Shown: positions 14,018 to 34,883 of the stretch, piece by piece
Layout of the letters: each line of letters opens with the position of its first letter
Numbering within the stretch: position 1 is the stretch's first letter
NCBI GenBank assembly: GCA_001798715.1
Contig: MGSF01000046.1
Location: 1,515 to 38,632, forward strand
Direction of reading: 5' to 3'
DNA: 37,118 nt
Source: Deltaproteobacteria bacterium RIFCSPLOWO2_02_FULL_50_16
GTDB taxonomy: Bacteria; UBA10199; 2-02-FULL-50-16
Position numbers and translations under genes: made by a program
The notes under the pieces: model-generated
The model's input: only the letters and a program-made list of their open reading frames with translations
Told to the model about the DNA's origin: nothing
Databases searched by the model: none

Positions 14018-14959
14018 ATGAAGGGACTCCTCCTCATCAATCTCGGAACCCCCGAGACCCCCACCAAAAAAGACTTGCGTTGCTATCTGAAGGAATTTCT
14101 TTCCGACCCACGAGTGATGGATATCCACCCCCTGGTGCGTTGGATGATCCTGAATCTTTTTATTCTTCCCTTCAGGTCAAAAAAATCGGCAGCGGCTTAT
14201 CGGAAAATATGGACAGGGCGGGGATCTCCTTTATTATTTTACTTGAAGGATCTGAAGGCACAGGTCTCATCGCTTTTGGGTGAGGAGTATGTCGTGGAAA
14301 TAGGCATGCGCTACGGATCTCCCTCCATGGGTTTAGGCCTAGCCAAACTCATAGGGCAGGGCGTGACCTCCATTGATATCCTTCCCCTCTATCCACAATA
14401 TTCCTTTTCGACCACAGGCTCTACCGTCAACCAACTGCAAAAGATATCCGCCGACCACCCCGACTGGCCCCCCATCCGCATTCTGCCTCCTTTTTATAAT
14501 CACCCAGGTTACATCGACGCCCTCTCTCAATTGATCCGAGATAACACACGCTCACCCGATCATGTCCTTTTTAGCTTTCATGGCCTCCCCAAGAAACAAA
14601 TTCAAAAAGGGGACCCCTATCAATCTCAATGCATATGGACCGCCAAGACGCTTGCTCGAAAACTGGGGTTGTCCAGTGATCTCTATTCCATTGTTTTTCA
14701 ATCCCGCTTAGGATGGAATTCGTGGATCCAACCCTTCACAGACCAAGAGATCGTCCGTCTGGCTCAATCAGGCAAAAAGAGGCTCACTATTGTCATGCCT
14801 TCCTTTATAGCGGACTGTTTGGAAACCCTAGAGGAAATCGGGATTCGTGCCAAAGAGACGGCCCTGGCCCATGGGGTAGAGTCCTTTAATATCGTTCCCT
14901 GCCTCAATACCCATCCCCTTTGGATCAAGGCCGTCTGTCAGATGGTACGCTCATCATAA
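14018..14959 (+). CDS. hemH: Ferrochelatase
   Basis: LLINLGTPETP, RYGSPSM, LPLYPQYSFSTTGS, SFHGLPKK, FQSRLGWNSWIQP. Confidence 0.95.
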   Translation: MKGLLLINLGTPETPTKKDLRCYLKEFLSDPRVMDIHPLVRWMILNLFILPFRSKKSAAAYRKIWTGRGSPLLFYLKDLKAQVSSLLGEEYVVEIGMRYGSPSMGLGLAKLIGQGVTSIDILPLYPQYSFSTTGSTVNQLQKISADHPDWPPIRILPPFYNHPGYIDALSQLIRDNTRSPDHVLFSFHGLPKKQIQKGDPYQSQCIWTAKTLARKLGLSSDLYSIVFQSRLGWNSWIQPFTDQEIVRLAQSGKKRLTIVMPSFIADCLETLEEIGIRAKETALAHGVESFNIVPCLNTHPLWIKAVCQMVRSS

Positions 14960-15545: not shown

Positions 15546-15577
15546 AAAAACCCCGGATTCAGAGTCCGGGGTTTTTC
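15546..15577 (-). terminator. Rho-independent terminator of the lysine-rich mini-gene
   Basis: Minus strand: aaaaaccccggactctgaatccggggttttttc, GC-rich stem followed by a T run. Confidence 0.9.
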
Positions 15578-15601: not shown

Positions 15602-15649
15602 TTACTTTTTCTTTTTCTTCTTAGCAGCCTTCTTTTTCTTTTTCGCCAT
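15602..15649 (-). CDS. 15-codon lysine-rich mini-ORF, MAKKKKKAAKKKKKK
   Basis: Minus strand ggagggaactcATGGCGAAAAAGAAAAAGAAGGCTGCTAAGAAGAAAAAGAAAAAGTAA; preceded by a near-consensus sigma70 promoter and SD, followed by a terminator. Confidence 0.7.
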   Translation of the reverse strand: MAKKKKKAAKKKKKK

Positions 15650-15682
15650 GAGTTCCCTCCTTATTGTTAAGAACTAGTAAGA

Positions 15683-15711
15683 ATTATATTTAATTTCACT
15701 AAAATAGTCAA
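15683..15711 (-). promoter_or_regulatory. Sigma70-type promoter for the lysine-rich mini-gene
   Basis: Minus strand TTGACT (15711-15706), 17-bp spacer, TATAAT (15688-15683). Confidence 0.8.
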
Positions 15712-32438: not shown

Positions 32439-33608
32439 ATGATGGACAAGACACAAAAATATATCGGCTGGGCCTGTACCTACACCCCCCTTCCCCTCAT
32501 CGAGGCCTCAGGATTCACTCCTTATCGCCTCCTCCCCACAACCCAGGCCCCTGATCGTTCAGGACATAAGCTTCACGACAATCTATGTCCCCATATCAAA
32601 AAAATCCTTGATCGAGCCCTCGATAACGATCTGCCTCCACTGGCCGGAATCGTTTTTGTTAATAGCTGCGATGCCATGCACCGACTGGCGGACGCCTGGA
32701 ATCAAGTACGCCCTCATGATAACACCATTCTCATTGATCTCCCAATCGCACCTCCGGTGCTCCAGGGTCCCGGAGCTCTGTCGACGGGGCCCATCGCACC
32801 TCCGGTGCTCCAGGGTCCCGGAGCTCTGTCGACGGGGCCCATCGCCAATGACGAAAAATCCGTCGACTTTTTGAGCCAGGAATTTTCCAAACTCTCCCAG
32901 ACCCTTGCAGAATGGTCGGGAGAGACCCCCACAAAGGCAGCCACCCAAGAAGGCCTGTCGCACTATCACGAGATTTATAACCTTCTCGATGAAATTAAAA
33001 ATCACCACATCAAGGGTACCCTCAACAAAGGGGGGGCCTTTATGCAAGACCTCTACAATCAAGCGGCCACACAGTCCTCCACTCAAACCCTAGAATCCCT
33101 TAAAAAATGCCTCGCCTCCTTCCAAGAGACTCCTTCCCTTCATAAAGGTATCCCCCTCTTTCTTTTTGGAAATGTCCTCCCAGACCCCGAGGCCTTTTCA
33201 CTTTTTGAATCCTGCGGGGCTTACATCGTTGCCGATAATCTTTGTACCGGTTTTCGCCAATTTGCCGCCTACGACAAGATCCCGCCAGGTCTCAACAATG
33301 ATCAAGATGTTTTTGCCTTCCTGGCTCGCTCTCTCCTCATGCGAACCCCCTGTGCCCGTACATTTGATCCCCAAAAACCCCTTTATATCGCCGATCAGCT
33401 TTTGGCCGAGGCCAGGTCTTATGGGGTTCGGGGCGCCATTGGACACACGGTCAAGTTTTGCGATCCCTATTTGGCCCGACTTCCCATAATACGAGAGGTC
33501 TTTAAAAAGGCAAAAATGCCCCTCCTCCTCCTTGAGGGAGACTGTACGTTGCGCTCGATGGGTCAGCACCGCACACGTATTGAGGCTTTTGTTGAAATGT
33601 TGGGGTAA
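32439..33608 (+). CDS. 2-hydroxyacyl-CoA dehydratase / benzoyl-CoA reductase-type subunit (HgdB/BcrB/C-like) carrying an in-frame tandem repeat insertion
   Basis: GIVFVNSCDAMHRLADAWNQ, IADQLLAEARSYGVRGAIGHTVKFCDPYLARLPIIREVFKKAKMPLLLLEGDCT; neighbours a paralogue and an activase. Confidence 0.85.
   Translation: MMDKTQKYIGWACTYTPLPLIEASGFTPYRLLPTTQAPDRSGHKLHDNLCPHIKKILDRALDNDLPPLAGIVFVNSCDAMHRLADAWNQVRPHDNTILIDLPIAPPVLQGPGALSTGPIAPPVLQGPGALSTGPIANDEKSVDFLSQEFSKLSQTLAEWSGETPTKAATQEGLSHYHEIYNLLDEIKNHHIKGTLNKGGAFMQDLYNQAATQSSTQTLESLKKCLASFQETPSLHKGIPLFLFGNVLPDPEAFSLFESCGAYIVADNLCTGFRQFAAYDKIPPGLNNDQDVFAFLARSLLMRTPCARTFDPQKPLYIADQLLAEARSYGVRGAIGHTVKFCDPYLARLPIIREVFKKAKMPLLLLEGDCTLRSMGQHRTRIEAFVEMLG
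32745..32840 (+). repeat. 48-bp palindromic module, two exact tandem copies, in frame inside a dehydratase-subunit gene
   Basis: atcgcacctccggtgctccagggtcccggagctctgtcgacggggccc at 32745-32792 and 32793-32840; encodes IAPPVLQGPGALSTGP twice. Confidence 0.95.
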
Positions 33609-33614
33609 AACTTT

Positions 33615-34883
33615 ATGATTTCACAATATTTTGATTCTCTCATCAGCGGCATTGAGGCCAAGATAAAGGAAGATCCCAAGGCCTTTCATCCCCGCAAAAA
33701 ATACACCCTTGAGGTGGCCCGACTGGGAAAAAGACTCTATGCCCGAGAAGGGCCCATCGCATCTCCGATGCTTCAGGGTCCCGGAGCCCTGCCGACGGGG
33801 CCTATCGCTCTCTGTGGCGTCACGACCCCCTTTGACCTCCTGAATGCCATGGGAGTCACCTCCTGTTTTGTCGAATTCATTGGGGCCCTATTGGCCTCAA
33901 GCGGAACCGTCGCCCCCTTTCTTGAAAAGGCCGAGCATTCAGGTTACGCCTCGGATTCCTGCGGCTATCATCGGGCCGTCCTCGGGGCCTCACAAGAGGG
34001 GCTGATGCCCCATCCCGACTTCCTGATCGCCACCTCCTGCCCCTGTAGCGGGGGATTGGCGACGATGGAAAACCTCGCCCATCACTATAAAAAAGACCTC
34101 TTTCTTCTTCATATCCCACAGGACCTGTCAAAAAAGAATGTAGATTATTTGGCCCGGCAAATCATGGAAATGGAAACCTTCGTGACCCGGCACACAGGTC
34201 GCCCCCTTGATCCTGATCGTCTCCTAAAAGTCATCGAAAAGACCAATCAGGCCCGGGAACTGATGGTCGAGATCTATCACCTTGCCCAGCACATCCCCTC
34301 CCCCAATAGTGGCAAGGAACTGGGAAACTTTGCTATTGTCATGGCCTTATTATTGGGGACGGACGCCGCCATTGATGTCACCAGGGCCTATCGTGATGAA
34401 TTTGCCGCAAGACTCCATGCGGGGTCTAGCGGTGTCCCTCAAGAACGCCTGCGCCTCATGTGGATTCAGAATCGTATCCAATTCAAAAATTCAATCATCC
34501 CAGATCTGGAAAAAAATTATCAGGCCTCCGTCATCGTCGATGAACTCAATAGCATGACCTGGGATCCCATTGATCCTCATGATCCTTATGTGGGTTTTGC
34601 CGAAAGGGCCATTTCCATTCCTTTCAATGGTGGCGTAGAACGACGTGTCCAGCATCTCAAGAAATTGGCCCAAGATTATAAAATCGACGGGGCCATCAAT
34701 CCCTGTCACTGGGGATGCCGGCAAGGAACGGGGGCGAGGGGCTTGATCGAGGAGGGTCTTAAAGAAATCGGGGTTCCTGTCCTCAATCTGGAAGTGGATT
34801 GTGTCGATACAAGGAATTATGCCGAGGGACAGCTGAAGACGCGGCTGGGGGCTTTTTTCGAAATGCTGCATAGTCGCCATTAG
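33615..34883 (+). CDS. 2-hydroxyacyl-CoA dehydratase / benzoyl-CoA reductase-type subunit with one in-frame repeat insertion
   Basis: ALCGVTTPFDLLNAMGVTSCFVEFIGALLAS, SYxCGYHRAVLG-like segment, ATSCPCSGG, GAINPCHWGCRQG. Confidence 0.85.
   Translation: MISQYFDSLISGIEAKIKEDPKAFHPRKKYTLEVARLGKRLYAREGPIASPMLQGPGALPTGPIALCGVTTPFDLLNAMGVTSCFVEFIGALLASSGTVAPFLEKAEHSGYASDSCGYHRAVLGASQEGLMPHPDFLIATSCPCSGGLATMENLAHHYKKDLFLLHIPQDLSKKNVDYLARQIMEMETFVTRHTGRPLDPDRLLKVIEKTNQARELMVEIYHLAQHIPSPNSGKELGNFAIVMALLLGTDAAIDVTRAYRDEFAARLHAGSSGVPQERLRLMWIQNRIQFKNSIIPDLEKNYQASVIVDELNSMTWDPIDPHDPYVGFAERAISIPFNGGVERRVQHLKKLAQDYKIDGAINPCHWGCRQGTGARGLIEEGLKEIGVPVLNLEVDCVDTRNYAEGQLKTRLGAFFEMLHSRH
33756..33803 (+). repeat. 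Diverged single copy of the 48-bp palindromic module, in frame
   Basis: atcgcatctccgatgcttcagggtcccggagccctgccgacggggcct; encodes IASPMLQGPGALPTGP. Confidence 0.93.

Follow-up and report, generated by a model that had tools for sequence, protein, structure and literature searches.

A predicted 15-residue lysine peptide and its class-wide family of lysine-rich relatives, with a possible role as stand-alone polycations

Can a reading frame of 15 codons that encodes little except lysine be a gene, and, if so, what would its product do? A preliminary description of the window (the whole stretch of 37,118 nucleotides analysed here) had pointed to a complete compact transcription unit for such a peptide, named polyK hereafter. 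The unit was re-examined, its relatives were collected from the 47 genomes of the organism's class, and the possible functions were weighed against each other.

The transcription unit and its reading frame

The locus and its context comprise the following features:

15706..15711, minus strand: -35 hexamer TTGACT, from a promoter scan
15683..15688, minus strand: -10 hexamer TATAAT, with a 17-nt spacer to the -35 TTGACT
15655..15662, minus strand: Shine-Dalgarno (SD) sequence AAGGAGGG, 5 nt 5' of the ATG
15602..15649, minus strand: polyK ORF, 15 codons plus TAA, encoding MAKKKKKAAKKKKKK
15546..15576, minus strand: intrinsic terminator AAAAACCCCGGACTCTGAATCCGGGGTTTTT, then a T run; 12-bp stem, 7-nt loop
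16183..18755, minus strand: scpB, scpA and trpS, 5' of polyK and on the same strand (context)
14018..14959, plus strand: ferrochelatase gene hemH, convergent with polyK (context)

The unit described earlier, TTGACT-17-TATAAT, SD, ATG, 15 codons, TAA and terminator, was correct base for base. The SD at 15662-15655 does lie 5 nt before the ATG, and the leader, previously put at roughly 30 nt, spans about 27 nt from the expected transcription start to the ATG. The ORF (nucleotides 15649..15602 of the minus strand, ATGGCGAAAAAGAAAAAGAAGGCTGCTAAGAAGAAAAAGAAAAAGTAA) reads ATG GCG, five lysine codons (AAA AAG AAA AAG AAG), GCT GCT, six further lysine codons (AAG AAG AAA AAG AAA AAG) and TAA; lysine and alanine thus account for 14 of the 15 residues (11 K, 3 A), and the earlier count of 13 had to be amended.

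The promoter matches the consensus at 11 of 12 positions. Across the 2.3 kb scanned, no other site exceeded 9/12, and shuffled sequences gave about four sites at 9/12 or better. The sequence TATAATTC, located at its -10 region, was found again 5' of many relatives' polyK genes. The predicted 137-nt transcript folds essentially into the terminator (z score -4.1), and both the minimum-energy and the centroid structure from single-sequence folding contained the terminator only, with no antiterminator. As hemH is convergent, this terminator cannot attenuate a downstream gene. The only known RNA family detected in the window was a tRNA.

Within the window, polyK is the sole ATG-initiated ORF of 12-60 codons with a K+R content of at least 59%. 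In 200 windows simulated with a second-order Markov model, such ORFs arose at 0.01 per window, and none of at least 15 codons carried an SD of 6 nt or more. A chance origin of the lysine-rich ORF is therefore excluded by the simulation. A search of the window's own genome for M-A-K5 with up to one mismatch returned a single match. From these sequence features, the ORF is almost certainly a real and complete gene for a 15-residue lysine peptide.

Elsewhere in the window, a 48-nt unit (GPIAPPVLQGPGALST) is present as two tandem copies at 32739-32845 and as one copy at 33750-33808, in frame within two adjacent paralogous genes and with 90-93% identity between copies; its appearance is that of a coding repeat that was copied or inserted as a mobile unit.

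A lysine-rich family across the class

Family members were found by a pattern search for an SD followed by an ATG and a K-rich start, after which each locus was read; the relatives found include no other class of the phylum. A DNA search with the window locus matched short ORFs bearing the same SD in other families. Gene names given below, except for SWIB and HU, are readings of the sequence and not library matches. Firm members were present in 31 of the 47 genomes, with one gene per genome, and in 14 of the 47 none was detected by this non-exhaustive search. Two further candidates were counted outside the 31, a polyK gene truncated at a contig end (G043) and a doubtful 16-mer without a terminator (G024). 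The latter ORF (L284, MAAKKKKKAGAKKKKR) has a modest SD and lies directly 5' of a gene whose sequence resembles that of topoisomerase VI subunit B.

Family peptides measure between 15 and 149 aa, usually 15-50 aa, and the predicted window peptide is the shortest firm member. Examples are:

G014: MAKKKKAKKKAKKAKKKKK
G026: MAAKKKAKKKAKKKTAKKKKK
G015: MAKKKKKATKKKATKKKKKAKKRR
G005: MAKKKKKAVKKKKKVAKKKAAKKKKR
G010 and G016: MAVKKKKAAKKKPAKKKAATKKKTAKKKKK
G033: MPKKKKKAVKKKATKKKKKAKKKKK
Long members: G007, 50 aa; G019, 52 aa; G039, 80 aa; G037, 91 aa; G028, 118 aa; G001, 149 aa

The longest of them belongs to the only same-order relative of the window. Long members extend by short repeats such as KKKKVV and ATKRK, the latter as pentamers in G001. 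Composition was analysed in 31 peptides (the 16-mer of G024 included and G023 left out), which together comprise 1178 residues: 665 K, 182 A, 96 R, 81 T and 66 V, with K+R making up 59-75% across the peptides and with not a single D, E, F, W, Y, N or Q. Composition was thus kept across the family with length and residue order free, and no conserved non-basic residue was found among the positional relatives of 15-149 aa. No additional domain was seen in the 15-mer or its relatives. Nine representatives of 21-149 aa (seven from the class family and two from other phyla, the 15-mer being too short to scan) matched no model of Pfam or NCBIfam at E <= 1, which is a weak sign of novelty because such libraries handle low-complexity sequence poorly.

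The gene order around the members was as follows, with the fourth line read only to the contig limits:

G000 (window): trpS-scpA-scpB-polyK
G004: trpS-scpA-scpB-rluB-polyK-protein kinase-M16
G041: scpA-scpB-rluB-LarB-EamA-polyK-PvlArgDC-agmatinase (SpeB)-M16-M16
G007, G013, G017, G019, G025, G029, G031, G035, G037 and G046 (ten genomes): (HAD)-(LarE)-(LarB)-(EamA)-polyK-PvlArgDC-agmatinase or M16
G010, G016, G028 and G039: kinase and/or RlmN-type neighbours in common
G009, G027 and G033: LarE-LarB 5' of polyK
G002, G009, G015 and G033: gamma-glutamyltransferase 5' of polyK
G008, G014, G026, G032 and G045: CoA-transferase 3' of polyK, with RsmI and RluA beyond it in the first four

In total, polyK lies directly 5' of the PvlArgDC gene in 12 genomes and of the agmatinase gene in two more. 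A targeted look in the genomes without a member revealed a 30-aa member exactly 5' of PvlArgDC in G023; in G044, PvlArgDC stands in another context and no polyK member was found upstream. Judged by this chain of gene orders, the family is inherited across the bacterial class.

Two other lysine-rich groups were observed in the course of this work. A mini-protein distinct from polyK is spread over the class (AFGGYTINFKGCKD...MTKKLWAYVKRKKLSKK, 51-130 aa; L003, L022, L025, L056, L060, L070, L074, L077, L079, L081 and L082). Its N terminus often bears a K-rich tail, and it resembles part of the SWIB domain only, mostly near or below the Pfam cut-off. In the window's genome there is also a canonical SWIB protein whose basic tail is almost absent (G000:C45:92362-92583, L129; MAKKQSAFMKPVQPDAALAAIVG...), and the SWIB proteins of several relatives carry K-rich tails. 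A third K-rich family (L085, L091 and L093) follows the pattern MAKKKKxK...KARVxKVKxKL...GLxEMxxxVQxAVxxIGxTASRVxExxIEPL, with a basic N-terminal and an amphipathic C-terminal half.

Selection on the product and signals for its expression

A synonymous-substitution test had been proposed for the relatives. The genes of G010 and G016 encode an identical 30-aa peptide and differ by nine base changes, all nine of which are third-position and synonymous (P between 4e-7 and 1.5e-5 for blind changes, depending on transition bias). The mixing of AAA and AAG codons had also been put forward as avoidance of long A homopolymers. Across the family this held, as the longest A runs sum to 189 compared to 250 +/- 9.3 expected when the lysine codons were permuted within each gene, with none of 3000 permutations as low, a figure that is approximate because the members are partly non-independent. 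For the window ORF alone, with a longest A run of 5, it did not (permutation P = 0.26), and A-run avoidance was dropped as single-gene evidence. On consecutive AAA codons, E. coli ribosomes slide and lose the frame (PMC9207662). Because A runs are avoided and poly(A) makes ribosomes slide, it is suggested that the full-length product matters.

Together, the nine synonymous changes, the avoidance of A runs and the lack of any acidic or aromatic residue in 31 peptides show that selection acts on the peptide product across the family. As the window gene has no close relative, selection on it is judged from the family, which in this way supports the earlier proposal that the short ORF is a real gene under selection for an intact polylysine peptide. 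The preliminary description had also asked whether relatives keep the hairpin and lose the ORF, and the reverse was found: the K-rich frame, promoter, SD and terminator were kept, and the hairpin sequence differed.

The best sigma-70 promoter within 130 nt upstream scored 10.8/12 on average across the family, reaching at least 11/12 in 20 of the 31 members and 12/12 in ten, compared to none of 329 other genes at the same loci and 0.6% of shuffled upstream regions at 11/12 or better. Terminators follow 30 of the 31. All members have an SD match of 6-7 nt, as against 6 nt or more in 5% of controls, although this enrichment is partly built in by a search pattern that demanded an SD; promoter and terminator were outside the search criteria. 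Strong expression of the polyK genes is expected from promoter and SD.

What the peptide may do

The reading that we favour, with a probability of roughly 0.6, is that polyK encodes a polycation which is abundant and acts in trans, equivalent in function to a basic tail of the histone H1/Hc2/AlgP type that stands alone. The locus would be a monocistronic unit encoding a polycationic micro-peptide of 15 aa with a net charge of about +11, strongly expressed and abundant. Acting in trans, and disordered like a basic tail detached from any folded body, the peptide would neutralise and condense a polyanion, as lysine-rich tails do in the histone H1-like proteins of bacteria. Chromosomal DNA or RNA is the most likely target, with the ribosome and polyphosphate as further candidates. 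From charge and composition, binding to a polyanion is probable. Because charge, the exclusion of acidic and aromatic residues, expression signals and position are kept while length and order are free, selection would be on bulk charge and not on a fold. Among the functions suggested in the preliminary description, the likeness to histone H1-like or AlgP-like tails, as a tail binding nucleic acid or another polyanion, fits best.

Two of the closest known systems are long or fused proteins. Hc2 (HctB) and its Bordetella/Burkholderia relatives are likewise polycationic, rich in Lys, Ala and Thr, and variable in length through short lysine-rich repeats, which in Chlamydia are pentamers (PMC2848022). 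The polyK family shares with Hc1/Hc2 a Lys/Ala-rich composition, the absence of acidic residues and length variation by short basic repeats; the curated Hc1/Hc2 family model matched none of the nine representatives of 21-149 aa. However, Hc2 has 165-237 aa and is developmentally regulated, whereas polyK peptides have 15-50 aa as a rule and near-consensus promoters. The C-terminal KPAA tail of AlgP/PhaF from Pseudomonas is also disordered, K/A-rich and basic, but it is proline-rich and fused to a structured N-terminal domain, whereas polyK has no domain and little proline. AlgP is located on polyphosphate granules, whose spacing requires its K-rich tail, and KPAA peptides from this tail bind DNA (PMC9239181). 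By its sequence, polyK resembles H1-like tails in its likely working, yet falls outside any named family, and no stand-alone bacterial polylysine gene was found in the open-access literature.

Some observations bear on the polycation reading from the other side. As all 47 class genomes carry HU/IHF genes (2 to 7 per genome), there is no evident gap for a nucleoid protein; replacement of HU was rejected, and the peptide would supplement it. A 15-mer may also be degraded quickly, which counts against this reading. Arginine decarboxylase and agmatinase are polyamine-making enzymes, and the adjacency of polyK to their genes in 14 genomes is suggestive, although it may reflect position alone.

The strongest rival, which we consider unlikely, is that polyK is a tiny basic ribosomal protein held in an rRNA pocket, a counterpart of bS22, bL37, bTHX or eL41. 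These proteins are like polyK in size, basicity, overlooked genes and strong expression signals, and similar peptides occur in many phyla. In Borrelia, bS22 (61% Lys/Arg) and bL38 were both missed by annotation and found by cryo-EM (PMC10618245). The COX24_C profile (PF08213) was detected in none of the 47 genomes, the window's included, so the bS22 site might be free, but the test is weak for such short proteins and the model rings in only one of 14 controls. Against a ribosomal role, the known proteins keep a defined sequence and length, whereas an rRNA pocket is ill-suited to relatives of 15-149 aa with scrambled order and no conserved non-basic residue. Moreover, 14 of the 47 genomes had no detected member, and neither the family models nor a PDB sequence search with a relative gave a match, although low complexity weakens both tests.

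Much less probable is a leader or attenuator, in which slow translation of the lysine codons would control a downstream operon through the terminator, ancestrally that of polyamine synthesis (PvlArgDC, agmatinase). SpeFL is the leader peptide of a polyamine operon, located 5' of speF-potE, and in part of the class polyK is likewise a short ORF with a terminator near polyamine genes. The position directly 5' of PvlArgDC or agmatinase speaks for it, as does a polyK-PvlArgDC gap in G046 of only 65 nt, terminator included, and translation of polylysine is slow (PMC9207662). However, a co-directional gene after the terminator is found in only part of the class: the downstream gene is convergent in the window (hemH) and in G002, G009, G015, G027 and G033, and unrelated in many genomes (CoA-transferase/RsmI, protein kinase). 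In nine of the 12 genomes (L107, L106, L119, L120, L122, L123, L283, L298 and L299), the decarboxylase gene is preceded by a conserved promoter-like element of its own, CTTG[TA]-N~14-TG[AT]TA-N-CGCG, which is unlike the TTGACA/TATAAT of polyK and may serve another sigma factor; in G046 and G023, which lack it, PvlArgDC may rely on read-through. Peptides of up to 149 aa also differ from a SpeFL-type leader, and the minimum-energy fold of the single sequence contained no antiterminator. Attenuation of polyamine genes was rejected as a general function on the basis of the convergent or unrelated downstream genes and the separate element, and the ribosome-stalling leader proposed earlier is disfavoured.

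A small RNA with an incidental ORF is highly improbable: the transcript of about 130 nt is short and has a stable 3' hairpin, but the synonymous-only changes, frame-consistent lysine codons, A-run avoidance, correctly spaced SD and unconserved hairpin sequence all speak against this reading. Least credible of all is the antimicrobial also listed in the preliminary description, a secreted or membrane-active cationic peptide, as high charge is set against nearly absent hydrophobic residues, the lack of both a signal peptide and a hydrophobic face, no nearby leader, export or immunity genes, and a single gene per genome inherited like a housekeeping gene.

Beyond the class, a cross-genome scan for the pattern SD-MAKK...KK-stop with 13-23 codons matched at least 120 stretches, and among the matches listed, at least 60 stretches held in-frame K/R-rich ORFs of up to 30 aa. 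The groups among the matches listed were Deltaproteobacteria MAGs, Bdellovibrionales (L165, MAKKKATKKKATKKKATRKKK), Planctomycetes, Dormibacteraeota/Chloroflexi (with MAKKKAAKKPAAKKKAAKKKK identical in at least five loci), Acidobacteria, Rhodoplanes/Xanthobacteraceae, Actinobacteria and archaeal MAGs. Conservation of the polyK neighbours held within such groups but did not extend to the window's class. Shared descent across phyla is not claimed, as common neighbours are weak and inconsistent; repeated origin is as possible as common descent. On three Phycisphaerales-type contigs (L236, L238 and L279), the polyK ORFs lie near nadD and the CTP synthase gene and have similar 3' sequences with a potential long hairpin of the TTCTGTGA...TCACAGAA type.

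Bacterial basic proteins that resemble histone tails are known either as domains or as long proteins built of repeats. The polyK family would be the tail alone, down to 15 residues, as a conserved gene; its promoters and ribosome-binding sites rank among the best in their surroundings, yet it lies below the usual gene-calling limit and is absent from the family libraries searched (Pfam, NCBIfam). Tentatively, and with more doubt than for polyK itself, many bacteria and some archaea might harbour hidden gene-encoded polyamine-like peptides. These stand-alone lysine tails, 13-35 aa long, would be expressed from near-perfect promoters and SDs, often beside polyamine synthesis in one class, and would act as counter-ions, abundant and tunable, to nucleic acids or polyphosphate. 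If polyK genes are expressed as their signals suggest, an abundant cell component would have been overlooked in many phyla, and the question becomes testable of whether a domainless, gene-encoded polycation organises the nucleoid, the ribosome or polyphosphate.
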